DNA of 64,000 nucleotides from Plumapathes pennacea (Eukaryota > Cnidaria > Anthozoa > Antipatharia > Myriopathidae), in the NCBI GenBank assembly GCA_964036295.1, contig OZ038462.1:2301501-2365500 (forward strand), given 5' to 3'. The position numbers were made by a program, and so were the translations under genes. Of the stretch, positions 335-37,208 are shown one piece after another. A model generated the notes under the pieces. That model saw only the letters and a list, made by a program, of their open reading frames with translations, had not been told where the DNA came from and made no database searches. Each line of letters begins with the position of its first letter. Within the stretch, counting starts at the first letter, position 1.

Positions 335-1467
335 GGCTTCTGGTCGGCGTCTTAGTGATTGGACCCATTATCGACTTGATCAAAGCCAAGGTTGGAGCTG
401 GAAAAAAGAAGTGTAAGCTGGACGCTGATACTCAAGCCGAGGTACGAACTGTTCACTAAAGAATCAAAATACGGATCGTCAAAATGAATTGCTGTGCACT
501 CTTCGATATATTATCTCGTAAAGAAAATCACAAAAAAAAAAAAAACATTTTCAAGCTGTGTTTGTGTCTGATATTGATATTTAACTGTTAGTCGTTCCCT
601 CGCCAGGTTACCGCTCTTTCTCATATTACTTTCCCAACCTTTCTTGCAGTTGGATAAAACTACCAACGTGTTAGATGTCCTCAAGGATTTGGTGAGTTCC
701 TGGGCGGACCAGCTGAAGAGTTTCAAACAAGACGACAGTCTAGGACAAGTGGACTACAATGGAACAGAAGCTGACGCAGCCGGAACTGTGTTCACTCTCT
801 TCACTGACATGAAGAACGTAAGTGTCTGGGGAAAAAAAGAAATATATCGCGCGTGCAGAGACACATTCGCACAGGCGCACACGTAAATAGCACACGATGC
901 ACACGCACGCAAGCGAGACACCCGTTGAATGCCGCATAACCCACATGCACACACATGCAAACATTCCCAAAGACTCTGTGTAGTAGGGTGAAGTTCACAT
1001 TCTCCTTACCAATTATCAAGAGTTTAAGTCCTGCTGTGATCAGTTGCTGGGTTTTCTCTAAAGCATTCATAAAAAGACGGTATGTGCTAAATTAAAAATA
1101 ATCACGACTGGATCGGTTTTTTACGTTGAGTTTAAATCAAACGTCAAGTTCTGCACAAAGATTGGAAAATAATATTTGTATTGATTGTCACTTGGATTTG
1201 AAAGTTAACGGCCCGGTTTCTTTTCAGCAACTGAACGCCGCATCACGAATCGCAAGCGAGTGCTCCGAAAATTGCGAGTGGAAAGCTAACTTGCAGCAGT
1301 TCAAGTTGGACGTGATCCTCGGAGCTTACGATGTTCAGGGAATCTTCCTCGCGAAAGACAATGGCACCGTCATGAAGCAGAAGAACTTCCCCCCCGGAGG
1401 CGGACCGCAAAAAGATGACGGACGCTTTCAACGCGAACTACTCCAGCACCTGGGTGCAGTTTATTAA
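335..1467 (+). pseudogene. Acidic-repeat membrane-protein family, broken copy A (exons 3-5)
   Basis: Three exons match exons 3-5 of the intact copies B and C. They are 335-441 (hydrophobic segment plus GAGKKKC lysine cluster), 650-817 (LDKTTN...TDMKN) and 1228 onward (QLNAASR..., CSENC). Acceptors (tag, cag, cag) and donors of the first two exons (gtacga, gtaagt) are intact and phases match copy B. The third exon has seven C where copy B has six, near 1390. This shifts the frame into a stop at 1465-1467. The donor that ends this exon in copy B is also missing, and exons 6-7 are not found downstream. Exons 1-2 would lie left of the window or are lost. Coding similarity to B is near-complete, so the damage looks recent. 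A transcribed short isoform cannot be excluded. Confidence 0.75.
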
Positions 1468-3860
1468 GATGATTGCCTTTTATTATGATAATATTGTGTT
1501 AAATTCTTCCAATAGTGTGTCATGACTTTTATTTTGTAATAACTCTTTTGCCGCGAAAAGAACCAAGTCAATGATAAATTTACTAATAGGACCAAAATAA
1601 ACGCGGCGGAGAAAGTTGTCGTAATATTTTTGGCTGAAGCGAGGTTACAAGGTTCGCGACCACAGCGAAACTCGGAACTTGGACAGAAAACGCATAAATG
1701 CGAGGAGAAAAATGCAATGACTCGGTAATATTTCATAAATAGAGCGAGTTTCACTTTGATGCTAATTAAAGTGCCCATGTTTTGATTCTTGACGTTGGTT
1801 CTTTACAAATTCAAAGTATATTATTGCAACGCGAAAACTGCCAGATACACGAGGAGCCGCAGCCGGGTTGAGCCGTAAGTACCCGTTGCTAACCAAGCTG
1901 TTTTAATCCCAGTTAACTGCGGCGAACAAAGGTGTAAGCAAAACAGCACGCAAGCGCCTCGATCCTTGGGGTGAGAATGTTTCCCGTGGGGCAAACGCCA
2001 GCCTGCTGAGCTGCTTTGTGAAAACCGGACATCAAGAATTCATTGAGCTTTGGGGCTGTTTTGCTGTATTTTTTGAGTCTCTTCAAAGTTTGTCATTTTT
2101 TCTTCGACAAATGGGCTGATACACTAAACTATTGCGCAAATTTAAAGTAGCCGTCTGTCGCCGAGTATTAAAATTGACAACTTTTTATCCTACCAAAATA
2201 AGCTGATAAGCAAGATTGAAACGTATATCAGTCTTGGAAAAAAGCCAATTACTACAAAAACGGTTTTACCTGATTTTGACTTCACTTCCGTGCAATATTC
2301 CCTCCCAAAGATTCGTGTCGGAACATCCACTTCCTGGGAACATTGCAGCAACTAAGATTCTGTCTAGTCAGGTAGTAATAGAAAGATCCTAAATGGCTGA
2401 AATTTGGTCCAAAAAAAGCCGAGATGTTTACTTCGCACAGGCGAGATCTTACTTGTTTTGTTTGAGTTACGATCGCAACGACAAGAAGACTGCTGAAACT
2501 GGACGGCTACAAGCTATTTTACCTGAATTTGACTTCACTTCCATACAATGTTCCTTCACAAAGATTCGTGCCGAAACACACACTTCCTCAGAACATTGCT
2601 GCACTAAGATTCTGCCAGGTCAGGTAATAACCGAAGTCGTAAAATATGTATCCGAAATTATAGTATTTCGCAGTAATAGTAGCCGGTTGAAAGCCAAGGT
2701 GTTCTCTTTTTTTCGCACAAGGTTGCGGTTCAACTCAAAACCCCCAAACACCACTGAAAGAACCAGTAGAGTTCTCGACAAACTTCAATCAAACTATAAA
2801 TACTTCGCCCTATAATTGATCAAAGACTCAAACGACCACGTACGAGTTAATGCTCTTGTACTTTCTGTGTGAGTCTGCCCGGAGTTTTGTCTTGTGTTCT
2901 CCTAACAAAGCTTAATTTAGCTTTAAACCATTCCATTTGCCGCAATGAGTAAAATACATTTCATAAAGCTGCCTGCAATGTCCAAACATCGATCAATTTT
3001 GAAAATTAAACTTAATCTTTCGCTATTACTATATAAACCTTTGGGCCTGCGCGAGTTTACAAGTAACCATGTTGTGATCAAATAATACTATACGCGGGCC
3101 GAGGGCTAGACCTTTGACAAGTACCCTGGGCTTCGTTCGCGAGGTGACCTCACACAGTAATATGGTTCGCTCAAAACCACCGATTGAACGGATCTGGCCG
3201 TCACACAAAAAGAGCCACAATCACTTCAAAATATAATTTTTAAAGCCATGAGCCATACTTCAAGAAACATAAGTCTAAACTAATATATCTACCCATCCTG
3301 AAATTTGCAGCTAAACAATTACAGAGCAAGATCCGGCCACAAAACCAAACATGTGGCCAGAACGTACACACGGGAAATCGGCCCGAATAAATCTCGCGGA
3401 TTAACTGAAATAGCGATAGCTTACCCTCAACCGATTATACCACTACACAAGTGATTCGCTAACCCTTTCAATCCTGCCTCTTGTCCTTCCGCGTAAAATA
3501 GTAATGCCCCGCGAATGTAATTTTATTCCTAAAACAAGAACTGGATGCTATCATGCTGATTTCATGACAGCTGAGAGTTGCCTGATGTGGATGAGCCTGA
3601 TTGAATCGACTGTTATTGGATTAATACCGCGGGACATTTTTCACTGATAACTAAACTTGAAACAGTCTTTTGTAAGATTTTGATAACGGCTTCAGCATCT
3701 AATTTGACTAATTCGGATTTACAAAAATTGATTTTCGATTTGGCACATTGTCTGCTAGCAGCTGATTCGGTCATAAAACTCGATAACGTGACATAACAGG
3801 GAACAGATTGAACGGACATATATATTTTTTCCTTCGGAAGATGAGCGTGAGCATGCATAT
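1468..3860. other. Intergenic region without a recognisable gene
   Basis: I see no supported coding sequence. The longest open frame (2393-2815, +, 140 aa) shows no known motif and overlaps the second unit of a tandem repeat pair. The region looks like old repeat DNA between family copy A and the DIRS-like element. Confidence 0.6.
2265..2624. repeat. Direct repeat pair with an inverted partner at 8431-8512
   Basis: A unit of about 108 bp occurs at 2265-2372 and again at 2517-2624, a 252 bp period. Both begin near TTACCTGA and contain TTGACTTCACTTCC and CACTTCCT. The reverse complement of the same unit lies at 8431-8512, on the other side of the DIRS-like element. The three copies therefore flank the retrotransposon in opposite orientation. 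They could be arms of an older, larger inverted-repeat element or independent insertions of one short repeat. Confidence 0.7.
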
Positions 3861-3920
3861 CGTGCTAACATATCTGTGTTAGCACGTGGAGTCCCTTGGG
3901 ACTCCAGATGGTTATATAAG
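3861..3920 (+). promoter_or_regulatory. Hairpin, palindrome and TATA-like box at the left end of the DIRS-like element
   Basis: CGTGCTAACA (3861-3870) pairs with TGTTAGCACG (3877-3886) across a 6-base loop. It is followed at once by the palindrome GGAGTCCC-TT-GGGACTCC (3888-3905). A TATA-like TATATAAG lies at 3913-3920. This cluster just upstream of the gag-like frame could be the element's terminal or internal regulatory sequence; that role is inferred from position only. Confidence 0.45.
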
Positions 3921-4014
3921 CCGCAGTGGATTCAAGATATCCATCACGTGTACCTCTACTCGGCGGTGCTTCACTTTACGTTCGGTTTATTTTAGTATTA
4001 TACATGCATTATAT

Positions 4015-4106
4015 ATTATCTATTTATTTATTTATTTATTTATTTACTCACTTACTTTTTATTTTTATTTATTTATTTATTTTATTTATTTACTTATTTA
4101 TTCTAA
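4015..4106. repeat. (TTTA)n microsatellite
   Basis: Tandem TTTA units with a few variants, in the 5' part of the DIRS-like element just before the gag remnant. Confidence 0.9.
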
Positions 4107-4121
4107 GTCCTGCCTCCTGGT

Positions 4122-4490
4122 TTGGCGCTGTTCGCTTTTATTATTTTCCCGTTTCAGGCCATCGAATGCCTTCTCAATCAGACATCTGCTTCAGATGCGG
4201 CAAAAGAGGTCACTGGAGTTCCTCTTGCAGACGATTCTATGAAGCTGCTGGAGCCGCGAGCCGCAGGACCACAAACAAGTTTGGACTTCACAGCGAATTC
4301 CGCAAGCCAGACGAGCGTCAGTGAATTCGGGGATCATGATGAGGCCACTGGACCTTTCGAGGATGTTGTTAAGGTAGTCAAATTACCTACGCCTACCTGC
4401 GAAGTAGAGTCAGGCAGCCTGGGCGTTTCAGTTATACCTAATGTTAAAGGTAGACTAAAAGCTAATGTTCAGTTTTGGGAAAAAATCAAT
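4122..4490 (+). pseudogene. gag-like remnant with CCHC zinc knuckle
   Basis: At 4187-4228 one frame encodes CFRCGKRGHWSSSC, a C-x2-C-x4-H-x4-C zinc knuckle as in retroelement nucleocapsid proteins. That frame stops at 4322-4324. A second frame (4122 onward) stays open through the following Val/Lys/Thr-rich stretch and reads KGRLKANVQFWEKIN just before the poly-C run. Such a sequence usually precedes the pol region in DIRS-like proteins. The coding sequence is therefore split between two frames by at least one frameshift after the knuckle and another at 4492-4510. Confidence 0.6.
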
Positions 4491-6199
4491 GCCCCCCCCC
4501 CCCCCCCCCCTTCATTATTAATTGTATTAGGGAAGGTTACAAGATTCCGTTCTATTCCACGCCGCCTGCGGCAGCATTTAACAATAATCGTTCTGCCATT
4601 CAACATTCTGACTTCGTTCGTTCGTCTATACTAGAGTTGCTTTCCTCGGGTAGAATTTGCCAAGTTTCTAAAAGTCATCTCAAGGTTATTAGTCCTCTTT
4701 CCGTTTCCGTTCAGAGCTGTGACAAAAAGCGTTTGATTTTAGACTTAAGGTACGTCAATCAACACATTCTGAAGCAAAAAGTGAAGTTCGAAGATTGGAA
4801 AGTCGCTTTAGACTACTTCGAGAAGGATAGTTTTTTCACCACCTTCGACCTTAAGAGCGGGTATCATCATTTGGATATTTTCCCTGAACACCAACCCTTC
4901 CTGGGTTTTAGCCGGGTCACGCTCGACGGAGAGCCTTGTTTTTTCATGTTTACAGTTCTCCCTTTTGGCTTATCCTCTGCACCTTACATCTTCACCAAAT
5001 TGGTCAGGCCATTAGTCAAACATTGGAGGTCCCAAGGCATACACGTTGTAGTGTACATTGATGATGGTTTCGATCTTGAACGCACTAAGTCCTGGAGCAA
5101 AAATTGTTCAGACAAAATTAGATCAGATTTGGCCCACTCCGGTTTCGTCACCAACGACGACAAGTCCGTGTGGGTTCCTACACAAGTCATTACTTGGTTA
5201 GGAATTATCTGGAACAGCCCTCAAGGAAAAATTTTCATCACCGAGTCAAGGATAGAAAAAGCATTGATTCACATTAATAGCGCTATTAAAGATCCAAGGC
5301 TCTCTGCTAGAAGCCTTGCCTCTATTGTGGGAAAAATAATTTCTATGAGCCCTGTATTAGGAAACCTCAGTCGAATCATGACCAGGCATTGTCAGATGTC
5401 TGTAGCAGCTGCACAAAATTGGGACAGTTTGTTCTTACTAGACAGATATTGCCTCGTGGAAATTGAGTTTTGGAGGGACAACCTTAGCTCCGTCAACGCT
5501 AAAAGTATATCGGACGTGCGGTTTCCAGCTACATCTATATACTCAGATGCTGGCAACGTTGCTTGTGCAGGTCATATCACGGGGAGAGACGTTAATGCTC
5601 ACAGAATGTTTACGGTAGCTGAACGTCTAGAGAGTTCCACTTATCGAGAGTTGTTAGCTATTCAGTTCGTCCTACATTCGTTTAGTTCAATTCTTTCTCA
5701 CTTAAAAGTGAAGTAGTTTACCGACAGCCAAGGGGCGACTAAGATAGTACAAGTTGGCAGCATGAATTTCAACCTCCACAAGCTGGCGTTTGACATCTTC
5801 TCTTTCTGTTTAAAATCTGGGATCGACTTGGACATTCAATGGGTTCCACGATCGCTTAATGAAAAAGCAGATTATCTCAGCAAGATCGTTGATTATGACG
5901 ACTGGGAGCTTGCCCCCGCAACATTTCACCGACTGAACGATCTGTGGGGGCCTTTCTCCCTGGACTGCTTCGCAACGTCCTATAACAACAAGGTTCAAAA
6001 ATTCTATTCCAGATTTTGGAACCCTGGTACTTCCGGGGTAGATACATTTTTTCAAGACTGGAGAGGCGAGAATTGTTTAGTCGTTCCACCAGCTGCGCTT
6101 TTATCCAAAGTGCTTATTTTCATGTTTCGATGTAAAGCCAGTGGAACAATAGTGGCTCCGTATTGGCCATCCGCACCTTTCTGGCCCTTGAGTGCATAA
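4475..6199 (+). pseudogene. DIRS-like pol: reverse transcriptase and RNase H with an in-frame stop
   Basis: This would encode the polymerase that copies the element's RNA. After the C run the frame reads GYKIPF, then reverse transcriptase motifs: RLILDLRYVN, TTFDLKSGYHH, LPFGLSSAPYIF and the catalytic YIDD (5054-5065). RNase H follows (IYSDAGN near 5540; TDSQ near 5720). A TAG at 5714-5716 sits directly before FTDSQ. Related proteins often have Trp here, so a TGG to TAG change is likely. The same frame then stays open to 6199 with the conserved pol extension (LDCFATSYNN, FYSRFWNPG, DWRGENCL, PYWPSAPFWPL). That extension may correspond to the methyltransferase-like domain described for DIRS elements, which is less certain. 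The stop and the 19-C run mean it cannot be translated as one protein. Confidence 0.82.
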
Positions 6200-6454
6200 G
6201 TTTTGGAACTTTGTCATCGATTACGCATTCTTTGAGGGTGCCTCGGCCTTGCGCCAAGGGCGCAATACAGGATCCCTCTTAGGTTCCCCGTCTTGGAACG
6301 GTTTTATCATTGCTGTCAGGCTACAATTTTCTCAAGGTGTCGACAATAACCAGTCGGACGTTGGTCCATAACGTTATCATTCTCGCCATATGCTCCGTAT
6401 CATAGATCTTGAGTTTATTTGGCATTGTTTTCAGCCAGATGGCAGTGCATGTAG

Positions 6455-6725
6455 CTCTAAGCCGGTTGGCAAGTTAATTCGAGCCGGTTGGCTATTTAAT
6501 TCGAGCCGGTTGGCAAGTTAATTCGAGCCGGTTGGCTGGTTTATCTGAGCCGGTTGGTACAAGCTAATCCGAGCCGGTTGGTAAGCTATCCGAGCCGCTT
6601 GGCAAGTATACGGAGCCGGTTGGCAACTTCTTTTTTTGAACCAATCAGTAGTTTGATTTGAGCCGGTTGGCAGTCCAAACTGAGCTGGTTGGCAGTATAT
6701 TAGTAGTTCGTTGGTAAGGTGGGAA
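6455..6725. repeat. GAGCCGGTTGGC minisatellite between pol and recombinase
   Basis: About ten imperfect units, roughly 20-25 bp each, share the core GAGCCGGTTGGC with variable spacers such as AAGTTAATTC. They fill the gap between the pol frame and the recombinase frame of the DIRS-like element. Confidence 0.85.
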
Positions 6726-6867
6726 GTCAGTTTACAATACATTTAACTTTAACCAGATGGCAATTATTCAAGCCAACCATTACTATTCCGCCGCGCGGCG
6801 TTTTCCCGGTTGGACCTAACATAGGCTCATCCTAACACAGCTCCTTAGTATTTTGTTTTCTTAGGAC

Positions 6868-7893
6868 TTGACAGAAGCCTCTTCTTGGGAACAGACATGC
6901 GGACCCAGAAGACGTGCTATGGTCCAACAGGTGTTAGCATCAAGAGCCAATTCCTCAGTTAAGAAATACTGCGCACAGTATAGAGCCTTCAGAGATTATC
7001 TGAGATCCAAAGGCCACATGTTAGTTTTGCCTTGTGACAATCTACTTATTTCAGAATACCTCTCCTTTCTTTCTGAAACAAAAAATTCGTATGCGATTGT
7101 TCTATCTGCGTTTTGTGCGTTAAAATGGGTTCATGGGCTTATTCCTTATGGCTCACAGGGTAACCCGGCTGACACAGAACTATCCCGCAACATCGTTGAG
7201 GCTAGTAAGCGTGTTTTCAAAAGGCCAGTAATCAAAAAAGAGCCTATTACTCCTTATATGATATACCGTATTTGCTCTAAGTTTGCTTGCGACGGCAGTA
7301 GTTTAAGTAATTTGCGTACAGCTCTAATATTCGTCTTAGGCTTCTACGGGCTCTTCAGAGTGAACGAGTTATTGGATTTACAGGCTTCCAATATCGTAGT
7401 ACACCAGGATTATTTAGAAATCTGCGTTAAGTATAGCAAAACCGATCAGTATAGACAAGGAAACATAGTCTTTATTTCCAAGGGTGGCGGAGTCACTTGT
7501 CCCCATTCCTTATTGTTACGATATTTTGCAATGGCAGGAATTGACCCTAACTCATCTGCATATATTTTTCGCTCACTCGTGCCTCTCAAGAAGGGCAAAT
7601 CGTATGTGTTAGGCCATAGGAAACTAAGTTATACCAGGTGCAGAGAGCTGATTAAGCAGTCTCTTTCCGCTATAGGAGTTGACTCTAAATCCTTTAGCAC
7701 TCATAGCCTTAGATCCGGTGGCGCTACCTTCATAGCAGATAATCTTGCTACGTCAGATTCATCTGATAGGTTACTTATGTTACATGGTCGGTGGAAATCC
7801 GATGCGGCCAAGAATATGTACATTAAGGAGTCCGTTCAAAGTAGATTACAGCTTACTAGATTATTCCCATCTTGCGATGAAAAGAACATGTAA
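6868..7893 (+). CDS. DIRS-like tyrosine recombinase (341 aa, intact frame)
   Basis: This is predicted to integrate the circular cDNA of a DIRS-type retrotransposon by site-specific strand exchange. The C-terminal catalytic domain has the full signature set: Arg164 in GLFRVNE, Lys191, the HSLR box (His279, Arg282), His306 in HGRWKS and nucleophile Tyr318 in NMYIKES. An N-terminal SAM-like core-binding region covers about residues 20-120 (SVKKYCAQYRAF). The frame is uninterrupted even though the pol frame upstream is dead, so this is the best-preserved part of the element. The first ATG at 6868 was taken; splicing or readthrough from upstream is possible because DIRS recombinases often lie in overlapping frames. 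Its last 16 codons have been copied into the tandem repeats that follow. Confidence 0.88.
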   Translation: MTEASSWEQTCGPRRRAMVQQVLASRANSSVKKYCAQYRAFRDYLRSKGHMLVLPCDNLLISEYLSFLSETKNSYAIVLSAFCALKWVHGLIPYGSQGNPADTELSRNIVEASKRVFKRPVIKKEPITPYMIYRICSKFACDGSSLSNLRTALIFVLGFYGLFRVNELLDLQASNIVVHQDYLEICVKYSKTDQYRQGNIVFISKGGGVTCPHSLLLRYFAMAGIDPNSSAYIFRSLVPLKKGKSYVLGHRKLSYTRCRELIKQSLSAIGVDSKSFSTHSLRSGGATFIADNLATSDSSDRLLMLHGRWKSDAAKNMYIKESVQSRLQLTRLFPSCDEKNM

Positions 7894-8227
7894 TTTCTAT
7901 GCTAAGTAGATTTTCAGCTTACTAGATTATTTCCAGCTTACGAAGAAAAGAACATGTAATTCTATGCTAAGTAGATTACAGCTTACTAGATTATTTCCAG
8001 CTTACGAAGAAAAGAACATGTAATTTCTATGCTAAGTAGATTACAGCTTACTAGATTATTTCCAGCTTACGAAGAAAAGAACATGTAATTTCTATGCTAA
8101 GTAGATTACAGCTTACCAGATTATTTCCAGCTTACGAAGAAAAGAACATGTAATTTCTATGCTAAGTAGATTACAGCTTACTAGATTATTTCCAGCTTAC
8201 GAAGAAAAGAACATGTAATTTCTATGC
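7842..8227. repeat. Tandem ~65 bp repeats derived from the 3' end of the recombinase ORF
   Basis: The last codons of the recombinase ORF (reading RLQLTRLF...EKNM) plus the first bases after the stop form the first unit. About five more units follow, each repeating AAGTAGATTACAGCTTACTA and AAGAAAAGAACATGTAAT. The units are almost identical, so the expansion looks young. Confidence 0.9.
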
Positions 8228-9537
8228 TTGCTTGTATGGCGCTGTATGTAATTAAAGCATCGTCGGGCATGTGGTCACACTCTGCCTGCCTTTACACAGT
8301 GTGCTGCGTCATGCGTCAGCGTTCTGGAGAAGGAAAATGTTTTTCCTTCGTACGAACGAAGTGAGAGAGAAGGAAATATAGCTTTTTGATTGCGGTGCAT
8401 AGAAACCGTTCACTGAGTGTTTTGGCGACTACCTGACCACTGTAATGTTCTCAGGAAGTGCGTGTTTCGACGCGAATCTTTGTGAGGAAATATTGCACGG
8501 AAGTGAAGTCAAATCAATGACATTGTTTGTGATTGGCGGAAAACTAATGAGATTTTTTTTACTGGGCATCAAGCTCTTTCGTTAGATACCGACTGATAAT
8601 TTTCGCCACATAAGCGCGACTTCTGTTATAGAGTCAGAAAGGCACCCCAGAGCACGATTGCCGGCTAAAATTACAATTTCTAATTCAGGACAAAATGATT
8701 ATCGGCACACGGACTGTGCTAATGGTTTGGAGTTTACACCTCTGTCATTCATACCAAGCAGACCGCACTCCACGGGCGGTGGGGACAAATTGTCCCCACC
8801 GAAAGGCCGTTGTCAAGGCGTGCGGCTCGTCATGCTCTTCAAAATGAAAGCTGCAAACCATAAACCAAGAACCCCTTATCAGAAACACGCGACATCCTCT
8901 GCAATAGTGTATTTTATTGTGTGCAAAGCAAAATTAAAGAGGTACTTGACTCGCTCTCGTTTTGATTGTTCCGCATATTTCGGATCAAGTAGAGTTTCGG
9001 TAAAATGCGACATCACTTCTCGCACAGTTTTACCCGCTGATCTGTAAATTAAAAGATTGCTATTGGTTATGTAACGCATTCAAGGGTCGCCCTCGGCTGT
9101 ACGTGCTGCTCAAGCAAAACTGGAAACAAAGCGGTTTAGAGCGACTATTGTCACCGTCAAATTACGTGTTTATCGAAGCTTTGTTTTGTAAAAATATTGT
9201 TTATTGTCTGTTTGAGGCGCTGGCCGGAACGCGGACAATCGGAAATCCACTTGAATCGCTGACGTGATTCTCCCCAGAGCATGCCGAGCACGTAGCCGCG
9301 ACCAAAGATATTTTCGATAAAGTAATCCTGCTGCAAGAATTTTCCTTGGCAAATAGAAACGCAATGGAGTATTCGATGATAATATCAGCGCATTTATCAG
9401 CAGGACGACATTTTTAGGAGGTTATTTCTCAATTTCGTGCTGCAAATAGTTCTACGTGCTGGTTCACCGGACGCGGTGTGACGTAAGAACACCGTGCAAC
9501 CAGTGTGAGTTGAAGTGTGATCACACCTCAGAGTTGC
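8228..9537. other. Intergenic region upstream of copy B
   Basis: No supported gene. It holds the inverted partner (8431-8512) of the 2265/2517 repeat. The open frames here (for example 8658-9047, +) show no family features. Confidence 0.55.
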
Positions 9538-9538
9538 T

Positions 9539-9546
9539 TATAAAAG
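9539..9546 (+). promoter_or_regulatory. TATA box of family copy B
   Basis: TATAAAAG lies 58 bp before the ATG at 9597. Copy D has TATAAG at an almost equal distance from its start. The short leader fits a transcription start near 9570. Confidence 0.6.
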
Positions 9547-9596
9547 CGAGGCCCACAACAGCACTTCACAACAGAGCTCAGTGAGTTACAATCAAC

Positions 9597-12500
9597 ATGG
9601 CAAGCGCAATCGTGGAAGTCATAGTGGAAGAGGCAGTAGAAGAGTCTGTCGAGACAGCCGTGGAGGAGACAGTGGAAGAGGCGGTCGAGGAGACAGTAGA
9701 GGAATCAGTAGAAGAAGCAGTGGAAGATACTGTTGAGCAGGTGCGCTAAATAAATGATCTCAGCTATAAATAAACAGTAAACTACTTTTGGCGAGGAAAT
9801 ATGCACGGATAATTGTCCGAGGATATTATCTGTTCCGAGGAGCGAAGCGAACAGCTCGGAGCAGATAATGTCCAAGGACAGTTATCCGTGCATATTTCCG
9901 AAGCCAAAAGTAGTTTACTGTCTTTATTATCCCTCAACTATTTCCTCTCGCAGCGCAAATAACGGCGCAAAGACTGTGAGGCTCTTTGGTGCTTTTTAGA
10001 ACTGCTTTTTCGACAAATGAATTGATGTCCTCCTCGGTAGTCATCTCGTTATGGTTTTTTGTGATTAATATATAAAACTGTGTTCGGATATTGTCAATAA
10101 ACAGCGTTTGTTCGCCAGGCGGGGTTATTCACTGATAACGTCCGCTCGGACGTTATTCGGTCACGTGTCACGATTTCACCAATCACGCACGGGAGGAAAT
10201 AACAGTTTATATATCGGCCTCCAAAATAGCCCAACTCGCCGTGAGCAGGCGTCTTGCCATGCTCACTTCATTTCCCCACAAGGAGAATGATTGTTGTCAC
10301 TAAAATTCACAGTAGCCTAGATCTGTTACTTCTAAATATATATGAGAAGCAAGTCTACCCGGCTCGGCCCCATGCCTTCGCAACCTTGTTTAGCCGCTGG
10401 AAAGCTGGTTTAACGGCTACCGCAGTAATTTCAGTTCGGCATTCATTTGACAATTCTTTGTCTTTTTCCATAGACCGTGGAAGATGCCGTCGAAACGGCT
10501 GTTGAAGACGCCGTCGAAAACGCTGTGGAGGACACGGTAGACGACACCGTCGAACAAGCGACGTCTTCGACGGTTAAAAGGAAACTGATGATGCTGATTG
10601 GAGGTTTGTAACTCCGACACTCGAAAACATCTCGTAAAATACTCGGTCACTGAAAAGACAAACTACGACGAATTACTTGTCTAACTAGAAATACAATAAT
10701 CGCAGATACCCCTCGCTCTGGCATGGATTAGGGCTATTATACTTGGGTAGCTCAACAAGAGAAAGCCTTCGTTTTACTGATATCTTGGCGCAAACATTTC
10801 TTGGAAGTCAACTGCTGCACACCATACGCATTTATCCCATGGTTAATACATCTTCGCGCCAAACCCCCTTTGCGGAATTCTAGATCCGCCCTAGAGGGTA
10901 CAGTCCGCATATAGCATATAAACATCACGGTCACGGTAATTGTTCGATTCTAACATAAAAGTACACGCACCTCATTTGATGAGCAGTTTAGTTGTATCTC
11001 GCTGCAACAACCTCTGATCCTTTTCCCTTCAACTGTGCAGGGCTTTTGGTCGGCGTCTTGGTGATTGGACCCATTATCGACTTGATCAAAGCTAAGACTG
11101 GAGCTGGAAAAAAGAAGTGCAAGCTGGACGCTGATACTCAAGCCGAGGTAAGAATTGACTCAAAGCACAGGTTCCCTTAACCTTACAGAAGAAAATGTAT
11201 GAGTGATGCAACGAGAATTAATAATTTGATTCCCTTTCATCAGTGAAAATTATGAAAAATCCAGTTCTCCTTACTGTGTGCTATATATTTTTTGATGAGA
11301 AACTGAAAGAAAAATTTAAAGTTGAGTCTTGAAAGAAAGGCAGTGAAAGGTTTAAAACCTCGTGCTGTGGGCACGAACTCTTTACCCCAAATCGCAAAAT
11401 AAACAGCGAAACAATACAACTCGACACAAAACACAAAATCAAACTAAAGCAAGGCTGCTAGCATGTGCGCAAATCAAACTTAAACAAGCATTAAAAAAAG
11501 GGTATATGTGATACTGCTTCTGTGTTGTTAATAATGATACTCGTTTTGCCTGAAACCCTCCCTTATTTGTCGATACGGATCCTGATATAATGTTCATCAC
11601 TTCGTCAAGTAAGGCTCAGTGGAACCACAATAATATTATTCAGCGGGCAGTGTCTGTGTCTGATACTCAACTGATATGGTTGTTCCCTCGCCCGTTGCCG
11701 CTCTTTCTCATGTTATTTTCCCAACCTTTCTTGCAGTTGGATAAAACTACCAACGTGTTGGATGTCCTCAAGGATTTGGTGAGTTCCTGGGCGGACCAGC
11801 TGAAAAGCTTTAAACAAGACGACAGTCTGGGACAAGTGGACTACCATGGAACAGAAGCTGACGCAGCCGGGACTGTGTTCGGTCTCTTCACTGACATGAA
11901 GAACGTAAGTGTCTGGGAAGAAAAAGAAAACTAAGATGAATCGCGCGTGCACAAACACGTTCGCACACGATACACGTGCGCATATTTAAACACCCACACG
12001 ACACACGCGTGGCCGCTTAGAATAAGCACAAACACGGCCATATTCCGTACCCTACATGCGCACATGTACACACGCACACGATAATTGCACACGATACACG
12101 CGTGGAATGCGTCAATCGTCACTTGGATTTAAAACTGAACGGCCCCGTTTCTCTTCAGCAACTGAACGCCGCATCACGAATCGCCAGCGATTGCTCCGAA
12201 AATTGCGAGTGGAAAGCTAACTTGCAGCAGTTCAAGTTGGACGTGATCCTCGGAGCTTACGATGTTCAGGGAATCTTCCTCGCGAAAGACAATGGCACCG
12301 TCATGAAGCAGAAGAACTTCCCCCCGGAGGCGGACCGCAAAAAGATGACGGACGCTTTCAACGCGAACTACTCCAGCACCTGGGTGCAGTTCATTAAAAT
12401 GAAGGTGAGAAAATTTGACTTGAGAGATTATATTCTATACTACAGCTGAACATTCAGACTGAGACTTGACCATCATTATGCCTAGTAACGAGTTTTGATT

Positions 12501-13543
12501 GTCCGAAAATGCGATGAAGACTTACAGACTGAACTCTACTACAGATTTCGCGTTTACGATAGTCAGTGGCTCAGTCTCTAAAATTCTGATACAGTCGGCG
12601 TTCATTCAGTGTCTCATCAATGTATCGATGTTTACATAAAGTATCCACAGTTCAGTTATTTCTCTCAATACGTCCTAAACAAAACGTATAGTGAAAATAG
12701 CGTTAGGAGAGCAGAGCAAAAGATCACCTGTCATTTTCTCCTCACTCAACTATATATACACAGCATTTAAGTTGATAGAAAGTACTTCCCTTTCTTATGA
12801 TTCAACTGTAATGTATGTTGCCTTTATAACTAGCAGTATTCAAACAAAAAGTTCAAACAAGACGTTTGTCTCTGATCACGTCTTTATCCAGGGGCATCCA
12901 AAACTGAAATTATACAGTGGACCTAATTATTTCTTTCTCGCTGCTTGCAGGCCAAGAGTAACTTGACTAAAGCAGTGAAGGCCCAGGCCAAGGCCGCGTC
13001 GCAGGCCGCTGTCAAAAAAGTGATCGCTGCACCAATGAAAACAGAAGTCAAGAGCGGCATGGAAAAACAAGTTGTCCCGGATGTTAAGTCTCAGGCCATG
13101 TCGGCCGCAAAGGCCCAAGTCACCGAGGTGATGAACAGATACAACTCGGCTATCAACAAACATGCAGCTATTCCAGTATACGGGATTTCCACCCTGAAGA
13201 GCTGGATGATTAAGAATGTTAAACCAACAGCTGTAAAGGAAGCTACGGACAAAGGTAAACGTCGAGTGAAAAGCGAACTGTAACTCATAGACCATCTGTA
13301 ACGTACTTTTTCCCTGACTCAGTTCTTTACTCCTTCAATCTTCTTCTATTCACAGCCAAAGCTGCCGCTAATGCCACACTGGAATTACCCCCGGCTCAGA
13401 TGAAAATAATGACCATTCAGTCTGACGCCCAACACAAGGTGCTGAGCGAGTACAACACTCGGATAAAGCAGGCCGCCAACCAAGCTGCTGACGAGGCTAT
13501 TCAGCAGGCTTTGGAGAAAGAACAGCAAAAGAACCAAAAGTAG
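9597..13543 (+). CDS. Acidic-repeat membrane-protein family, copy B (428 aa, 7 exons)
   Basis: I do not recognise this family. Exons: 9597-9740, 10474-10603, 11041-11147, 11737-11904, 12159-12404, 12951-13254, 13356-13543. All have GT-AG borders and the sum (1287 nt) closes in frame. Residues 10-90 are four-residue acidic repeats such as AVEETVEE, likely one long acidic helix. A hydrophobic segment follows (GLLVGVLVIGPIIDLI, about 92-107), then the lysine cluster GAGKKKC. Next is a helical region with Cys195 and Cys199 (CSENC). The C-terminal third is rich in Ala, Lys and Gln and probably helical. There is no signal peptide. The layout suggests a membrane-inserting or lipid-binding helical protein; this is inference. 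A TATA box precedes it and a possible polyA signal (AATAAA) lies at 13866. Confidence 0.8.
9766..9930. mobile_element. Palindromic MITE-like element in intron 1 of copy B
   Basis: Left arm AAACAGTAAACTACTTTTGG... with GCACGGATAATTGTCC pairs with a right arm ending ...CCAAAAGTAGTTTACTGT. The arms are about 70 bp with a short centre that itself folds (TTCCGAGGAGCGAAG / AGCTCGGA). No coding sequence. It looks like a non-autonomous foldback element. Confidence 0.8.
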
Positions 13544-16989: not shown

Positions 16990-17037
<48 letters not shown>

Positions 17038-17039
<2 letters not shown>

Positions 17040-17584: not shown

Positions 17585-17653
17585 ATGACGTCATTGTTTG
17601 ATGACACTGACTGGAGCCTGGATCTAATTTCGTCCTTTACGTCACCGGAAGTG
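17585..17653 (+). promoter_or_regulatory. Candidate CRE and ETS sites upstream of the four-helix membrane gene
   Basis: TGACGTCA (17585-17592) is a consensus CRE palindrome. ACCGGAAGTG (17644-17653) is a consensus ETS site. Both lie within 150 bp of the ATG at 17733, and no TATA box is seen. This combination is common in housekeeping promoters. Confidence 0.45.
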
Positions 17654-17732
17654 AAAGTGTGATCAGTCGTGTGACGAAACTGAATATTTTGTCAGTAGCG
17701 CTGTTTCGACTTTGGCTCAATAAAACGCCACA

Positions 17733-20219: not shown

Positions 20220-20276
<57 letters not shown>

Positions 20277-22563: not shown

Positions 22564-25500
22564 ATGGCATCTGTAGTCGTAGAAGAAATCATAGAGGCCG
22601 TGGTAGAAGAGGCAGTAGAAGAGTCTGTTGAGACAGCCGTTGAGGAGACAGTGGAAGAAACGGTTGAACAGACAGTAGAGGAATCAGTAGAACAAGCAGT
22701 GGAAGAAACTGTGGAGCAGGTGCGGAAATTTACTGGTAATCGACAGTTTACAAATATCATGTCAGACTAGGCCCACTACCTTGGTGAGGCGTACTGATGC
22801 CCGGGGGGGGGGGGGGGGGGGTGGTGGGTATGGTATGTTTCTTGACCATAGTCGACCATGGTCAGATATGTTTTCTGACCAATAAAATATATCTGGCCAT
22901 GGTCAGGAAGAAAATTTGACCATAGTCGACCATGGCCAGGAAACATATTAGACCATGGTCGACCATGGTCAGAAATACATGAGAGTTCTGCGTTCTGCAC
23001 GCATCTTTTAAACTGTGTGTATTTGTCAGACCGTGGAAGATGCTGTTGAAACTGCCGTCGAAGACGCCGTCGAAAGTGCTACTGAAGACAGCGTGGAGAA
23101 CAGCGTGGAAGACGCAACCCAATCAGTCATCAAAAAAAGACTGGTGATGGCGGTCAAAGGTCGGTCAGCTGACAAATTTGTTTGTTTGTTTACTGCCAGG
23201 CAAATCACACTGAGTCCTCTTTCTGGCAAGTAAACAAAACTTGTTGTAAAATATATTAGTAAGACTATCGTCTCTGTGTATCTCGCTGTCTCTTTCTTAA
23301 AATGAGAAGGCGCACCTCTGGTAAAGAGATACACCAAGTTTATACCAGGCAGAAAGCTATCTCATGTTTATCTCAGCAAGTACATAGCTTGTGTAATACG
23401 AAAATTCAGGAATCTCTTAGATAGGAAACCATGTTTATCTTCGGCACATGAGTTACGTTTAATGTTACAGTCTTTGTTGTTATTGTCAGAAAACTGTATA
23501 TAGTCGAGGCAACAAGATTGTGGCAAGATTTGCCTCTCTTTTCAGCACTTGGCAGTATTGCTTCCGGCATTTCAACAATCGCTGGTTTCGTGAAGTCATT
23601 ACTTGGAAAAACGAAATGCGACTTGGATGCAGACACTGAAAGCCAGGTGAAAATGTGGTAGCTTTATCGATCACACACTGTAAAAACCGATGTTAGACAA
23701 TTAATTTATTAAAACTTGCATAGATTGCGTCGACTTGAATCTCTTTTGGCCAGGGCCGTTTCGTCCTTCAATGTTTTGAACCTAGAACAAACACTTCAGT
23801 TGCTCTTTATTTGATCGAGACTGTGCTGACTGGTTGTAATGCGAATGCTTGCTTTTCTCGCAGTTGGATAAAACTACCAACGTGTTAGATGTCCTCAAGG
23901 ATTTGGTGAGTTCCTGGGCGGACCAGCTGAAGAGCTTTAAACAAGACGACAGTCTGGGACAAGTGGACTACAATGGAACAGAAGCTGACGCAGCTGGAAC
24001 TGTGTTCACTCTCTTCACTGACATGAAGAACGTAAGTGTCGTGGAAAAAAAGCTGAGGTTGATTCTGCTGAGTACTACTAAAGGATAACGTTGCTTCATA
24101 ACTATAATGAACAACAAACAAAAAGATGCGAGTGAAACAAAGAGAGAAATACAAAACAAGATAAAACAAAGACAAGAGACAGATAAACAAAAATAGCAAC
24201 AAAGGAAGAAACATAGAAAACAACAACAACAACAACAACAACAATAACATAGAGAGAGGGTGGCAAAGATAAGATAAAGATAGATATTTGATAGATATTA
24301 TTCCATAGCCCTACGGTAACATCTGTTATTGGGCTTAGTTACTACACTATCACTCTATGTGGACAGAAGGACAGTCAATCACTGCTGTGTATATGAATCT
24401 GTCACTTTAGAAACTAAACGCAGTATCCCGTATCGCAAGTGAGTGTGCTGAAAACTGTCAGTGGAAAACGAACATGGATGAATACAAGTTGAACGTAATC
24501 CTGGCAGCTTACAGGGTGCAGGTAATATTCCTCGCTAAAGACAACGCTCCCGTCATGAAGGAGAAAAACTTTCCACCCCAAGAGGACCGCCACAAAATGA
24601 CTGACGCGCTGGATGATAGCTATTCGAAAGAATGGATCCAAGTGATACAACTTGAGGTAGGTTTGTCTTTAAAAAGTCATCCGCTGGACAAGGACGTCCA
24701 AAACAAACGCAGTTATCAGAATGTACTCATTGAGAGCTTTCATTTGAGTGGTCATACCTGTAGATTTTATTTGGAAGTCCAGGAGTTGGAAGTGAGCACT
24801 CTATGCTATTACTAATGTACTGTACTCGATGAGAGCTTTTTATTTGAGTGTTCACAATTTTAGGTTTCATCGTGATAGTTCAGGAGTTGGAAGTAAACAC
24901 TGAGGTTAGAGCGGTTTTCGGATGACTGTCGAAAGTAATTGTGTGATTGCTTTGGTTTTGCGTTTGCTTCGCTTTCGGATTGGTCCACACGAGTTTGTCG
25001 GCATGCTCAGCCAATCAGGAACAAAACCAAAACCAAAACCAAACACTTCTCACGCAAGCGATGGCGTGTACTCGCACTGCTGATTGGAAAGTAAAACCAA
25101 ACGCAAGACCAAACGCGAATTACTTTGGCTTCCAATTGGCTGAACTGTTTTCTCTCAGTCTCTGTGATTGGCCTGTGTGATTACTTTGGTTTTGGTTTTC
25201 GACAGTCATCCGAAAACGGCTCTATCACACCTTAAACACAACTGGACTTATTCTTCTATTCGCAGGCCAAGAAGAACTTGACCAAAGCAGTTCAGGCCCA
25301 GGCCAAGGCCGCGTCGCAGGCCGCTGTCAAAAAAGTGATCGCTACACCAATGAAAACAGAAGTCAAGAGCGGCATGGAAAAACAAGTTGTCCCGGATGTT
25401 AAGTCCCAGGCCATGTCGGCCGCAAAGGCCCAAGTCACCGAGGTGATGAACAGATACAACTCGGCTATCCACAAACATGCAGCTATTCCAGGTTACGGAA

Positions 25501-25971
25501 TAGCCACTCTGAAGAAATGGATGGAAGATAACGTTAAACCAACAGCTGCAAAGGAAGCTACGGACAAAGGTAAAAATCAAGTCTCGGATACAACAAGCTT
25601 GGCAGCTGGAAAAAAAGCAAAACTGCGTAGAACACGTAGAAAATTGCACCAAACAATAATTTGCTGGTTGAAGTTGACCATTTGAATGTGGAATGCGTGA
25701 TCTCAAAGCGAACTGTTAGTCAATTTGTGTCACTGAGATTATTTGTCTGTTCCAGACAAAGGTAACGTACATAATCCTTAACATTTTTTTTTTCTTTTCA
25801 GCTAAATCTGCCGCTGATTCCACCCTGAAGTTACCGCCGGCTCAGATGAAAATAATGGCCATCACAACCGGCGCTCAACACAAGGTGCTGAGCGAGTACA
25901 ACACTCAGATTAAACAGGCCGCCAACCAAGCTGCTGATGAGGCTATTAAGAAGGCTTTGAAGAACGAATAA
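22564..25971 (+). CDS. Acidic-repeat membrane-protein family, copy C (424 aa, 7 exons)
   Basis: Exons: 22564-22719, 23030-23159, 23546-23646, 23864-24031, 24411-24656, 25266-25569, 25802-25971. Intron phases equal those of copy B and the 1275 nt close in frame. The N-terminal 95 residues are VEE-type repeats (EEAVEESVETAVEETVEETV) with a basic end (IKKRLVMAVKG). The hydrophobic segment differs from B: ALGSIASGISTIAGFVKSLL (96-115), then KTKC. The CAENC pair is Cys197 and Cys201. Exons 4 and 6 are almost identical to copies A/B at nucleotide level, while exons 3 and 5 are clearly diverged. AATAAA at 26052-26057 is a good polyA signal 81 bp after the stop. Its function is unknown, as for copy B. 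Confidence 0.8.
22801..22976. repeat. G-run and GACCATGGTC palindromic repeats
   Basis: A run of about 19 G (22803-22821) is followed by at least six GACCATGGTC-like palindromes, some joined head to tail as GACCATGGTCGACCATGGTC. It lies in intron 1 of copy C. Confidence 0.85.
24905..25225. mobile_element. MITE with ~45 bp terminal inverted repeats, intron 5 of copy C
   Basis: The left end GCGGTTTTCGGATGACTGTC matches the reverse complement of the right end (GACAGTCATCCGAAAACGGC). The inner sequence is rich in CCAAAACCAAAACC and CCAATCA. No coding capacity. Confidence 0.85.
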
Positions 25972-27397: not shown

Positions 27398-30300
27398 TTA
27401 ATTCTTCAGTACGTTGTCTACGGCCTCTTTCACTTTTTCGTCGATTTCTGCTTTGTGGTCTGCAAACACTTTAGCTGCCACGGACGCTTTAATCTGATCC
27501 ATTTGCTCCTGAGGACATAAAGACGGAGAGATCGAGAACACAGACAGACATAAACATATATCCATAAGATAGATCTGACAGAGAAATAAAGATAGAGAGT
27601 TTATAGACCGGTGAGGGTTGATGAACTTAAAAACACTTCAGTCAAATTTTTGTATCTAGGCGGGTACATCGATAAGTACATTTTCAGGATTAGTAGTGAA
27701 GTTCGTTCACAAACCAGTCTTGCTCATTTTAGTTTAAAAGGCAGATTCTCCCAACCTTTTGAGAGGAAAATGTATAAGTGATGTAATGAGAATTGGTAGT
27801 TTAATCAGCTTTCATTTGAGCAAGGTATCAGAAGCCAAGTTCTCCTTACTGTATGATATATTTCTGGTGAGAAACTGAAGGAGAAAATCTAAAAAAGTTA
27901 ATCACTCTTGGGAGTGAAAGGGTTAAGGTCTCTTATCAGAAATTTTAGCCACGGAGTAGAAACATGACTCATATAATTACAGTTACCAGCGGCATTAGTT
28001 CAAGAACTGCAGAACTTGCTGGAAGCTAGATTGTGGACCACCTGTCAGTGTACTGTGGCCGGATTATTAATATTGCAGATGACAGTCATATGTACTTTCG
28101 GTGTTTCAATACTTTGTTTAACGTGATACACACCTTGGTGCTGGTCGAGTTGAACGCCTCTTGCACGCTGTTCTGAGCAGCTGTTTTGGCTGCTGCTTTG
28201 GCGTCGCTTGAAGCTTGGCTGATCATCATTGGTCCCTTCACCCAGCCATAGAACGGGATCAAACTCGTCAAAATGATATTTTTCCGGCGGTCATCAAAGA
28301 TCTTCTTTGCAGCGCTCTTCCCGGCTTCTTTGGCGTTTGCGACAATCTGTGGTTGAATGTCTTGTTTGACCTGGTCTTGAATTCCCTAAAACAGAACAAT
28401 CGACCACGTTACCTCCCAAAGAAACCATAACGATTAAGTGAAACCTACGGCCATCTCTATATTTCTGGTGAGAATAAACAGATTGAGACAATTGAAGCTG
28501 ATTTCTCTCAAGAGTGGAGGCATGCAGACGTATATACCTGACTTATCGGCTGTTTCACAATCGGCACTATTGCCTTAGTTGCCTCCTGAGTAGCTTGTTT
28601 TATCTTCATTTTGTTCAAACTTCTCTGCGCTTTTCTCTTGATGTACGCTTTCCAGTCGGGGAAGTCTTTGTCCAGAAGTTTTTGAATGGCTGTCTGGTCT
28701 CCTGCGGCTGGTAAACCACATTCCTGCATTTTAGGGGCTTTCTCGCCCAGTTGACAGATCGCTAATAGTGCAGTGATAGCATTCACTACTCCTAGGGTAA
28801 ACGTTTGCATGTTCGCTTTCCACGCGCAGCTTTCAGCGCATTTACTCGAGATCTTCTCTGCCCCACTGAAAGCCTGGACCAAAAAAAGAGAGAGAGGAAA
28901 TATTAAAAGTTAAAACTAGCCACATCAAATATTTAAAGAGAGTCGGGTCATAAATTGCAACAAACAAAATCGACCGAATACCGTAAAACTCTTATCCTTT
29001 CATATTCTCGTCAGGAGCAGGGTATAAATAGAGTTGGGTGTATAAATTCTCTTTGTTAGCCTTGCTGTATCTTCGTGAATGGGAGGAGAGTTTGTATTTT
29101 ATTCAAGTCAACTCACATTTTTTGCGTCGTTCAGCATTCCCCAGAAAACGGAGCTGATAGCCACTTGTTTTGTCTCGCCTTTAACCGTTACAGTGCTGGT
29201 GCCAAAGTCAGTGTCCTTAGGAAGGCCCTTGACAATGTCGTTCCACTTGGACATGATACCTACACACAGATACATAGGAGAGAAAAAAAGTCAATACTCT
29301 AATGAAGGACGCACAGATCAAACGACCAAAAGTGTTCCTGCCACTTGTACTTGCATTTCGCTTTTCCTTGCGTCGCTCGTTTCCATGGACACAAACCAGG
29401 CTTAAGTGCATTTGCAATCAATCCTGCTTATACCTGATATTCCGTCCAATGCGTCCTGCACGAGATCCAGCTTGTTCCTGTCACTTGCGTCCAGTGGACA
29501 TTTTTTCTTTCCTGCTCCCGTCTGGGCCTTGATCAGCTCGATAACCGAACTGACCCCAAGTCCAACAAACAAAATGGCGCCAACCTTCACGATCTTCCCA
29601 ACCATGCTACTGCTACTGGCGGCTTCCTGGTTCATGAATACAACTCATTATTTTTAACTTCATCTAACCTATCACTTTTATCAGACCTCCATCCCCTCCC
29701 CACCCCCTCCATCTAACGCGTGGTTTCCTACGTGACTCGTGGCAGCATTAACAATTACTTCACAAACTTTTCTTGCGTTTGTCCTTGTATCGTTCGTATG
29801 CACTTGATGTATGTTTCTTGAGCTTGCGTCCTTCGTAAAAATCAAGTTTTAGTTTGGAGCGCGCGAAAAAAATAGGGGATCATTCGCCCCAGTCCTTCCC
29901 CAACTTTTCGCGCGCTCAAAAAGAAACTGTCACGTGACATTTACCTCTGCCGCTTCTTCGGCCGCTTCCTCTGCAGCTGCCTCGGCTGCTTCCTCTGCGG
30001 TCGTCTCCGCTGCTTCTTCTGCCGCTGACTCGGCTGCCGTTTCTGCGGCGGCTTCTGCGGCTGACTCTGCCGCGGCTTCCGCTGCCCCTTCTGCTGCGGA
30101 TTCAGCTGCGGTCTCTATGGAGACGAACAAAGGAAATTAGTAGTTCGAGATATCGATAATTTTCGTTCTCACGAAATTTAGTGAATACTACCCCTGTGAC
30201 ATTCAGACACAGGCACGATTTTTTAAGCTGTTTGCTCAACGCGACGTTCAAAATGACTCAACCGGCAGAAAGTTTCTAACAACAGAAAGAAACCAGAAGA

Positions 30301-30874
30301 ACGTTGCTTACGTTCGAGAAGTGGAGAAAGTAAACAATAACAAACAAACAAACAAATAAAACAATAATTTAGCACAGAAATGCAAAAAAAAAAAAAAAAA
30401 AAATCACAGAGATGCACGAAAACCAATAGAACAAATGAAGGATAAGCGCTTTCGCGATGTTGGTTTAGCTGGATGTGTGTATTATTTCAGACTGTAAGAA
30501 AAAACTACTGCGTCGGCCGGGAATCGAACCCGGGTCAACTGCTTGGAAGGCAGCTATGCTCACCACTATACCACCGACGCCACACAGTGTACATTTACCA
30601 AGGCTGACTGATGAGCAATTAGTTGTTATGACTGACTTGTTCTCCGACTGCCGCAATGTAATATCGCAATGAATAATTATAAAGAGATGTACGTGCTGAG
30701 GATCAATGTGGAGAGAATTAAACAAGAGAAACATAGACACAGAAACGCGCAGCCAGAACAGAAAAACATCCCAGTATCAGAAGTACCTGCCACAGTTTCG
30801 GCCACGGTTTCCGCAATAGCTTCGGCTGCAACCTCTGCCACTTCAATGGATGCCTCAATCGCTATGGACGCCAT
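27398..30874 (-). CDS. Acidic-repeat membrane-protein family, diverged copy D (430 aa, 7 exons)
   Basis: Exons, minus strand: 30874-30787, 30114-29945, 29626-29434, 29259-29117, 28873-28538, 28385-28134, 27508-27398. All are GT-AG and the 1293 nt close in frame. Residues 1-86 are acidic four-residue repeats in which Ala replaces most Val (EEAAETTAEEAAEAAAEEAA). The hydrophobic segment is KIVKVGAILFVGLGVSSVIE, followed by IKAQTGAGKKKCPLDA, almost the same as in copy B. The CxxxC pair is Cys210 and Cys214 (CAESC). The C-terminal helices keep the Ala/Lys character but little sequence. Intron positions and phases differ from A-C and exon 5 spans what is exon 5 plus part of exon 6 there, so D is an older paralogue. 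The function is unknown. Confidence 0.78.
30509..30580 (-). tRNA. tRNA-Gly (UCC)
   Basis: This 72 nt gene folds as a normal tRNA. The acceptor stem GCGTCGG pairs with CCGACGC, and the discriminator is A (30509). The D arm reads GTGGTATAGTGG, the anticodon loop CTTCCAA holds TCC (30547-30545), and the T arm reads GGGTTCGATTCCC. The A and B box promoters are intact. A run of six T on the minus strand (30504-30499) serves as the Pol III terminator. It is nested in intron 1 of copy D on the same strand. Confidence 0.97.
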
Positions 30875-30927
30875 CTTCCTCCAGTTATGAACAACACAAC
30901 AGTGTCTATATTTTAACAGGGCGCGCT

Positions 30928-30933
30928 CTTATA
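30928..30933 (-). promoter_or_regulatory. TATA box of family copy D
   Basis: TATAAG on the minus strand lies about 55-60 bp upstream of the ATG at 30874, the same spacing as in copy B. Confidence 0.5.
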
Positions 30934-31280
30934 CTTTCTTCGGCTCAGCGGGTACAGCGAAATGTCACAGTAACGTGCGTGTTACTTCAACGGCAAACTG
31001 CACGAATTTGTCTGGATATTTTCGGAAATCTCAACTTGTTTCCTGTGCCGCCACGCACGTCATGCGCTTTGGTGTGGAAATCAAACAATGGCACAAAGGT
31101 TGTCTGTAATATAAGTTGTTTGTTTTTTTTTTTTTTTTTTTTTTTTTTTGTGATTCGTGATATTAAACTGCCAATATAGGTACATAAACGTACTGAACAA
31201 CATCTTAAAATGATTTTGGATAAGCTGGAGTTTATACATTATGAAACTAAACCGGGCGACGCCTGAAGTACGTTGTACTC

Positions 31281-31382
31281 TCAGAATCGTTCTTCAATTT
31301 CTGTTAATTCTTTTTCATTGTTCAGTGAGTTGTTTACGGCCTCTGTCATCTTTTGGCCAATTTTTGTCTTGTGCAAGACATT
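31281..31382 (-). pseudogene. Fossil last exon of a fifth acidic-repeat family member
   Basis: The minus strand reads HKTKIGQKMTEAVNNSLNN and more residues to a TGA at 31283-31281. The last exon of copy D reads HKAEIDEKVKEAVDNVLKN, so 10 of 19 positions are identical; the DNA is also similar (TTGTNTACGGCCTCT). No acceptor site precedes it and no other exons were found, so it is a relic lying upstream of copy D. Confidence 0.6.

Positions 31383-37171: not shown

Positions 37172-37208
<37 letters not shown>

Follow-up and report, generated by a model that had tools for sequence, protein, structure and literature searches.

An unrecognised family of acidic-repeat, basic-tailed proteins encoded among the transglutaminase genes of Plumapathes pennacea

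Gene family at the locus

A 64,000-nucleotide stretch of the genome of the anthozoan Plumapathes pennacea (assembly GCA_964036295.1, contig OZ038462.1, hereafter C1, positions C1:2301501-2365500) carries several genes of a protein family that is not recognised in the libraries searched, together with transglutaminase genes. This whole stretch is called the window, and coordinates without a prefix are counted from its first letter. An earlier note on the same DNA had proposed three complete genes of the family (B, C and D), all closing in phase over seven exons, plus one broken copy and one fossil exon, and all five were recovered here.

Each complete gene consists of seven exons with GT donors and AG acceptors joined in one open frame up to a stop codon. 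Gene B (plus strand, 9597-13543) encodes 428 amino acids (aa). Its exon 1 (9597-9740), which begins with the ATG and has the sequence TATAAAA 58 nt before it, and exon 2 (10474-10603) encode an acidic repeat with a period of four residues; exon 3 (11041-11147) encodes most of a hydrophobic segment and the motif GAGKKKC; exon 4 occupies 11737-11904; exon 5 (12159-12404) contains CxxxC; exon 6 (12951-13254) encodes a basic Ala/Lys/Gln helix with the motif AIPxYGIxTLKxW; and exon 7 ends with the stop (13356-13543). Gene C (plus strand, 22564-25971, 424 aa) has its exons at 22564-22719, 23030-23159, 23546-23646, 23864-24031, 24411-24656, 25266-25569 and 25802-25971, with AATAAA 81 nt past the stop. 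Gene D lies on the minus strand (30874-27398, 430 aa; exons 30874-30787, 30114-29945, 29626-29434, 29259-29117, 28873-28538, 28385-28134 and 27508-27398); its exon 2 reaches its GT donor, TATAAG precedes the ATG by 59 nt, and AATAAA follows the stop by 120 nt.

The cluster indicated by the earlier note is a real local family, but it continues on both sides of the window, where three further intact members were found: A0 (C1:2295210-2299217, plus strand, 428 aa), E (C1:2292469-2288554, minus strand, 486 aa) and F (C1:2387463-2391733, plus strand, 431 aa). The broken copy, A, retains exon 3 (335-441, within a 202-bp block with 91% identity to B), exon 4 (650-817; tblastn matches of 98, 95 and 100% to A0, B and C, respectively, over 647-817) and an exon 5 remnant matched in two frames (1228-1472), all on the plus strand. 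Its exons 1 and 2 are located just upstream of the window, its homology to A0 and B ends near 1472, and exons 6 and 7 are missing after the remnant of exon 5. The fossil is a 66-bp D-type exon 7 on the minus strand (31308-31373), with 77% identity to the 3' end of gene D (E 6e-10).

Family matches were confined to this one locus in the 290-Mb genome (24 contigs), which was searched with single-exon protein queries taken from exons 3-6 of at least one member, at E up to 0.001 in one set and up to 1 in another; like the other genome-search counts reported here, the number of matches is a lower bound. The six proteins range from 424 to 486 aa. A0 and B share 97% identity, C is 76-78% identical to these two, D and F are 57% identical, and the other pairs fall between 27 and 36%. 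Exon phases broadly split the family into A0/B/C/E and D/F, the third intron of E having the D/F phase.

The six genes are real, and amino-acid changes in them are held down by selection. The proportion of nonsynonymous differences is lower than that of synonymous ones in all 15 pairs. Among the five pairs for which the synonymous divergence (dS) is finite, the ratio of nonsynonymous to synonymous divergence (dN/dS) is 0.27 (A0-B), 0.28 (A0-C), 0.29 (B-C) and 0.25 (both E-A0 and E-B), dS of the last two pairs being about 2.5, which is near saturation; the remaining ten pairs are saturated. All six genes have an AATAAA signal 81-323 nt after the stop (within 400 nt). In the 150 nt before the ATG, a TATA-like box was found in A0, B, D and F, only TTTAAA in C, and no such box in E.

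Two other elements lie among the family genes. Between copy A and gene B, at 4466-8284, is an element that by its parts is a retrotransposon of the class we take to be DIRS: it has a reverse transcriptase open reading frame (ORF; PF00078, E 6e-15), a tyrosine-recombinase-like ORF (PF00589, 22.2 bits, under the cut-off of 27.1) and a 65-bp tandem repeat. Just upstream of F is a 360-aa open frame on the plus strand (C1:2384617-2385696), for which no Pfam match was found.

Comparison with known protein families

As the earlier note had held, the family could not be assigned to a characterised one. Comparison of all six proteins with Pfam, NCBIfam and PHROGs gave nothing better than E 2.9e-4 (best values over the six members, 3.4e-4 in Pfam and 2.9e-4 in NCBIfam), and all scores printed with a cut-off fell below it. 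Scores were set against cut-offs for B and C (Pfam) and for D (three NCBIfam families, all below the cut-off), and A0, E and F were judged by the best E-value. Neither B nor C has a Pfam match above the gathering score, and D matches no Pfam family at E up to 1. A profile comparison with PDB sequences returned three matches (E 0.81, 0.93 and 7.4), none of them credible.

The weak matches to DUF445, TolA, a phage capsid protein and bL17 were rejected as compositional or due to chance, those that could be placed lying mostly on the acidic repeat. The DUF445 profile (PF04286) matches two of the six members at E up to 1, the better score being that of C (E 3.4e-4), but this score is 21 bits against a gathering threshold of 33.8, and the matched residues, 5-158, are about half acidic repeat. 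With TolA (NF007065) and other alanine- and charge-rich helices the family shares an alanine-rich charged helix; however, the match was seen in one of six members (D, residues 12-89) and scored 16.6 bits against a cut-off of 213, a compositional resemblance. Matches of the tail to slr1513, DUF6959 and an endonuclease PHROG were discarded on the same grounds.

A scan of bacterial sequences with patterns of the acidic repeat gave at least 594 matches, one of which was confirmed (Rhizobacter, residues 3-85 only); we attribute it to convergent low complexity, and it says little about exons 3-7. Viral scans yielded no confirmed match among 600 for the acidic patterns and among 209 for the exon-6 patterns. 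Literature searches, judged by titles and abstract openings, turned up no description of the family or of a cnidarian transglutaminase-substrate cluster, and the family is not mentioned in passages of PMC3161096 and PMC3723955.

Protein architecture

The proteins share a domain order of acidic repeat (exons 1-2), hydrophobic segment (around exon 3), cysteine-containing middle region and basic C-terminus rich in Lys, Gln and Ala (exons 6-7). The order described for B, C and D thus holds for an unrecognised local family, except that member E has neither the cysteines nor GAGKKKC. Unbroken runs of Glu or Asp at every fourth residue extend over 18-19 repeats in five members and over 8 in E. The net charge of exons 1-2 is -24 to -27 and that of exons 6-7 is +3 to +13 in the six members. 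Lys and Gln together make up 13.8-17.5% of each of the six proteins, as raw percentages; a Gln-rich extreme C-terminus occurs in A0 and B only.

The hydrophobic periodicity of exons 1-2 peaks at 4.00-4.02 residues in all six proteins, and none of 500 shuffles was as strong. In exons 6-7 the peak is at 4.00-4.04 in five of six members (E, A0, B, C and D, with 0, 0, 2, 0 and 7 shuffles as strong, respectively), and at 3.66 in F. Exon 3 has no significant period in any of the six. For exons 4-5, D and F give 4.00-4.02 (7 and 11 of 500 shuffles as strong, respectively), and A0, B, C and E give 3.34-3.42 (22, 35, 82 and 335 of 500). The peaks of the two charged regions differ from the 3.5 residues of a heptad coiled coil.

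These values bear on the possibility that the family acts as an intracellular stress or lipid-surface protein, whose long amphipathic helices, disordered for the most part, would cover lipid or shield other proteins. Late embryogenesis abundant (LEA) proteins and perilipins are built of 11-residue amphipathic repeats. The likeness consists in a long amphipathic helix rich in Ala, Lys and Glu, and the Ala/Lys/Glu/Gln-rich composition, the low-confidence helical models described below and an N-terminus that does not resemble a signal peptide by eye are all in line with such a role. However, the 11-residue period (11/3 = 3.67) peaks in none of the six proteins for exons 1-2 and only in F for exons 6-7, the period of 4.0 being found instead in six and five of six, respectively, and there is no credible Pfam match. 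We consider an LEA/perilipin-like function decidedly improbable.

A mean Kyte-Doolittle hydropathy of 1.6 over 19 residues is the usual threshold for a membrane-spanning segment. The 19-residue maximum falls at or close to the beginning of exon 3 and is 1.62-2.78 across the family; since all six members reach at least 1.6 there, a membrane-inserting segment is plausible. The main stretch begins at residue 86 in B, 90 in C and 98 in D, the earlier note having placed the segment near residues 92-115. A single segment, as then proposed, is present in A0, B, C and E, but in D and F a further stretch within exon 5 exceeds 1.6 (1.79 from residue 223 onward in D and 1.65 from residue 218 onward in F), and a weaker one (1.31) surrounds the motif IPFYGW.

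It could be supposed from these segments that the proteins are membrane-inserting effectors or scaffolds, in which one or more hydrophobic segments span or enter the membrane, oligomerisation is controlled by the acidic N-terminus and the basic tail, and the transglutaminases nearby are bystanders. Besides the hydropathy of all six members and the second stretches of D and F, the weak conservation of the hydrophobic exon from B to C (amino-acid identity 0.40) speaks for this view. On the other hand, C (1.62) and E (1.78) only narrowly exceed the threshold, insertion is a prediction from hydrophobicity, and the Pfam comparisons of B, C and D returned no family above threshold. Such a function is in our estimation unlikely, and nothing in the analysis points specifically to a pore-former.

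A triad of cysteines, comprising that of the lysine cluster and the CxxxC pair, is present in five of six members, with further cysteines in D and F. The CxxxC pair was found in B, C and D as claimed before; the GAGKKKC form of the lysine cluster holds for B and D, but C has LGKTKC. Member E has no cysteine at all and carries a Ser-rich insert in place of the lysine cluster. Because all three are missing together in this single case, the three cysteines may act together, as E suggests. AlphaFold models from three window sequences gave low-confidence helices for exon 5 (mean pLDDT confidence score 48.8) and a low-confidence three-helix model for exon 6 (mean pLDDT 60.1, the exon 6 of D aligning poorly).

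Mosaic structure of gene C

Divergence of gene C from its closest relatives varies sharply between exons. Against A0, dS in exons 1-7 is 0.33, 1.36, 1.52, 0.09, 2.62, 0.09 and 0.41; against B, it is 0.38, 1.30, 1.52, 0.12, saturated, 0.16 and 0.35. Thus, exons 4 and 6 of C are near-identical to those of A0 and B (dS 0.09-0.16), while exons 2, 3 and 5 have diverged. The introns of B and C are 42-59% identical, little above unrelated sequence, and those of A0 and B are 96-99% identical. When B and C are compared without gaps, their identity is 0.30-0.85 over the 20 bp next to the exon edges and 0.10-0.50 farther away, values that small indels also lower. Constraint on synonymous sites was rejected as the cause of this mosaic: since dS between D and F is saturated in exons 4 and 6, these exons are not intrinsically frozen. 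The pattern suggests, as its simplest reading, exon-limited gene conversion between C and the A0/B/A group.

Transglutaminase genes interleaved with the family

Four transglutaminase genes were detected at the locus by Pfam exon matches. Genome-wide, PF00927 has four matches (six candidates scored) and PF00868 eight exon matches, two for each of four genes (seven candidates scored), and all of them are at the family locus. Two of the genes are inside the window on the plus strand, with extents taken from the Pfam exon matches only: TG1 (35302-39096; PF00868 and PF00927) and TG2 (49961-54212; PF00868, PF01841 and PF00927). The other two, on the minus strand, are TG3 (C1 ~2393230-2397598) and TG4 (C1 ~2409000-2415130). 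All four contain GQCWVF, which we take to be the active-site cysteine motif; in TG1 and TG2 it is at C1:2338926 and C1:2353815, respectively. The TG4 region also contains a kilobase-long simple repeat (C1:2412786-2413844), whose frames read poly-Ser, Leu, Phe, Glu, Lys or Arg.

All four detected transglutaminase genes are interleaved with the family inside about 127 kb (C1:2288554-2415130 for the union of both), member F lying between TG2 and TG3. One objection is that this neighbourhood arose by chance, two unrelated tandem families having expanded next to each other and the orphan family serving a different structural purpose, perhaps in the cytoskeleton or the nucleus. Tandem duplicates often arise locally, and the neighbourhood also includes genes that show no evident link, namely those of a Nup192/205-family nucleoporin and a ligand-gated ion channel. 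Yet both families were found only in the same 127 kb, with F enclosed by transglutaminase genes, and two random single-locus families with spans of 103 kb and 78 kb would overlap in 290 Mb with a probability of about 6e-4, a piece of arithmetic uncorrected for post hoc noticing. Chance adjacency seems to us somewhat unlikely.

The channel gene (C1:2278778-2279668, plus strand; PF02932, E 1e-43) lies beyond member E as seen from the window, and a similar extracellular-domain-like ORF, judged by eye only, is at C1:2257438-2257830.

Proposed cross-linking of the family proteins

Co-location with transglutaminases, Lys/Gln content and long charge-segregated helices led us to propose that the family provides a self-assembling, locally cross-linked substrate. 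The four-residue period in the C-terminal exons of five of six members, together with the transglutaminases in the cluster, points to a cross-linked structural protein, and the gene arrangement suggests, without proving it, that neighbouring genes here encode the enzymes and the proteins that these enzymes cross-link. We put forward as a tentative possibility, short of probable, that the family consists of helical proteins which have segregated charges and self-assemble, and which the neighbouring transglutaminases cross-link, the cross-linking being deduced from gene position and Lys/Gln content alone.

The proteins would be leaderless structural proteins with long helices, whose acidic and basic halves, with the same four-residue period in most members, would pair within or between molecules. 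The hydrophobic segment could anchor the assembly at a membrane or be buried in its core, and the cysteines would stabilise it. The neighbouring transglutaminases would then join Gln to Lys in the tail, giving an insoluble layer, plug or fibre that could serve, for example, in wound sealing or as a barrier. Exon-wise gene conversion would homogenise exons 4 and 6 and leave exons 2, 3 and 5 to diversify.

Several observations weigh against this proposal. The co-location was noticed after the fact, and two adjacent tandem families amount to one coincidence, not ten; the genome-wide counts are lower bounds; and the four transglutaminases are known from Pfam exon matches, not from gene models, the PF00927 match of TG1 containing one TGA, seemingly at its very end. 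A gene of the Nup186/192/205 nucleoporin family with no obvious link (PF11894, E 2e-38; C1:2365556-2366122, minus strand) is located between TG2 and F; it possibly continues at 63522-63908 in an ORF for which no Pfam match was found. Among the proteins themselves, exons 6-7 of F peak at 3.66 rather than 4.0 (3 of 500 shuffles as strong), the charge of exons 6-7 in D is only +3, and the Gln-rich end EQQKNQK of A0 and B is not conserved in C, D or F. Because exons 1-2 of B and C are built on 12-bp DNA repeats, the period there may partly reflect sequence growth, and period 4 in exons 1-2 could simply stem from expansion of such repeats. Finally, the low-confidence models of exons 5 and 6 say little beyond the presence of helix.

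The proposed cross-linking has counterparts in known systems, which were compared by description. Vertebrate cornified-envelope proteins of the epidermal differentiation complex, such as involucrin, are cross-linked by transglutaminases. Like the present family, they are encoded by clustered, tandemly duplicated, low-complexity structural genes rich in Gln, Lys and Glu, with no obvious signal peptide, and they have a functional tie to transglutaminases, which here is a proposal. In contrast, the Plumapathes family has seven coding exons, a hydrophobic segment, a strict four-residue period and no library match, and its transglutaminases lie inside the cluster, whereas mammalian TGM1 lies elsewhere. 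Invertebrate clotting substrates of transglutaminases include crayfish clotting protein, horseshoe-crab coagulin and caraxins. The family would work in the same way, a soluble precursor becoming a cross-linked plug, but comparison with Pfam, NCBIfam, PHROGs and PDB sequences gave it no credible match.

Structural gene families that are lineage-restricted and tandemly duplicated are of an ordinary kind; the pairing of this one with the complete detected set of transglutaminases would be new. In its fullest form, which we regard as distinctly doubtful, the locus would be a self-contained "glue cassette", in which all animal-type transglutaminases of a non-vertebrate genome are interleaved with a whole tailor-made family of period-4 substrates. 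Acidic and basic halves of an otherwise unmatched architecture would zip together before cross-linking, and exon-by-exon conversion would preserve the likeness of the scaffold exons, leaving the hydrophobic and cysteine exons to diversify. A strict four-residue period shared by the acidic and the basic half is unusual as a helical design, and exon-limited conversion, if it has occurred, distinguishes the constant parts of the protein from those that can vary freely. Should the linkage prove functional, one locus would supply the enzyme set together with its candidate substrates, and this would offer a direct, testable handle on wound sealing or barrier building in an early-branching animal.

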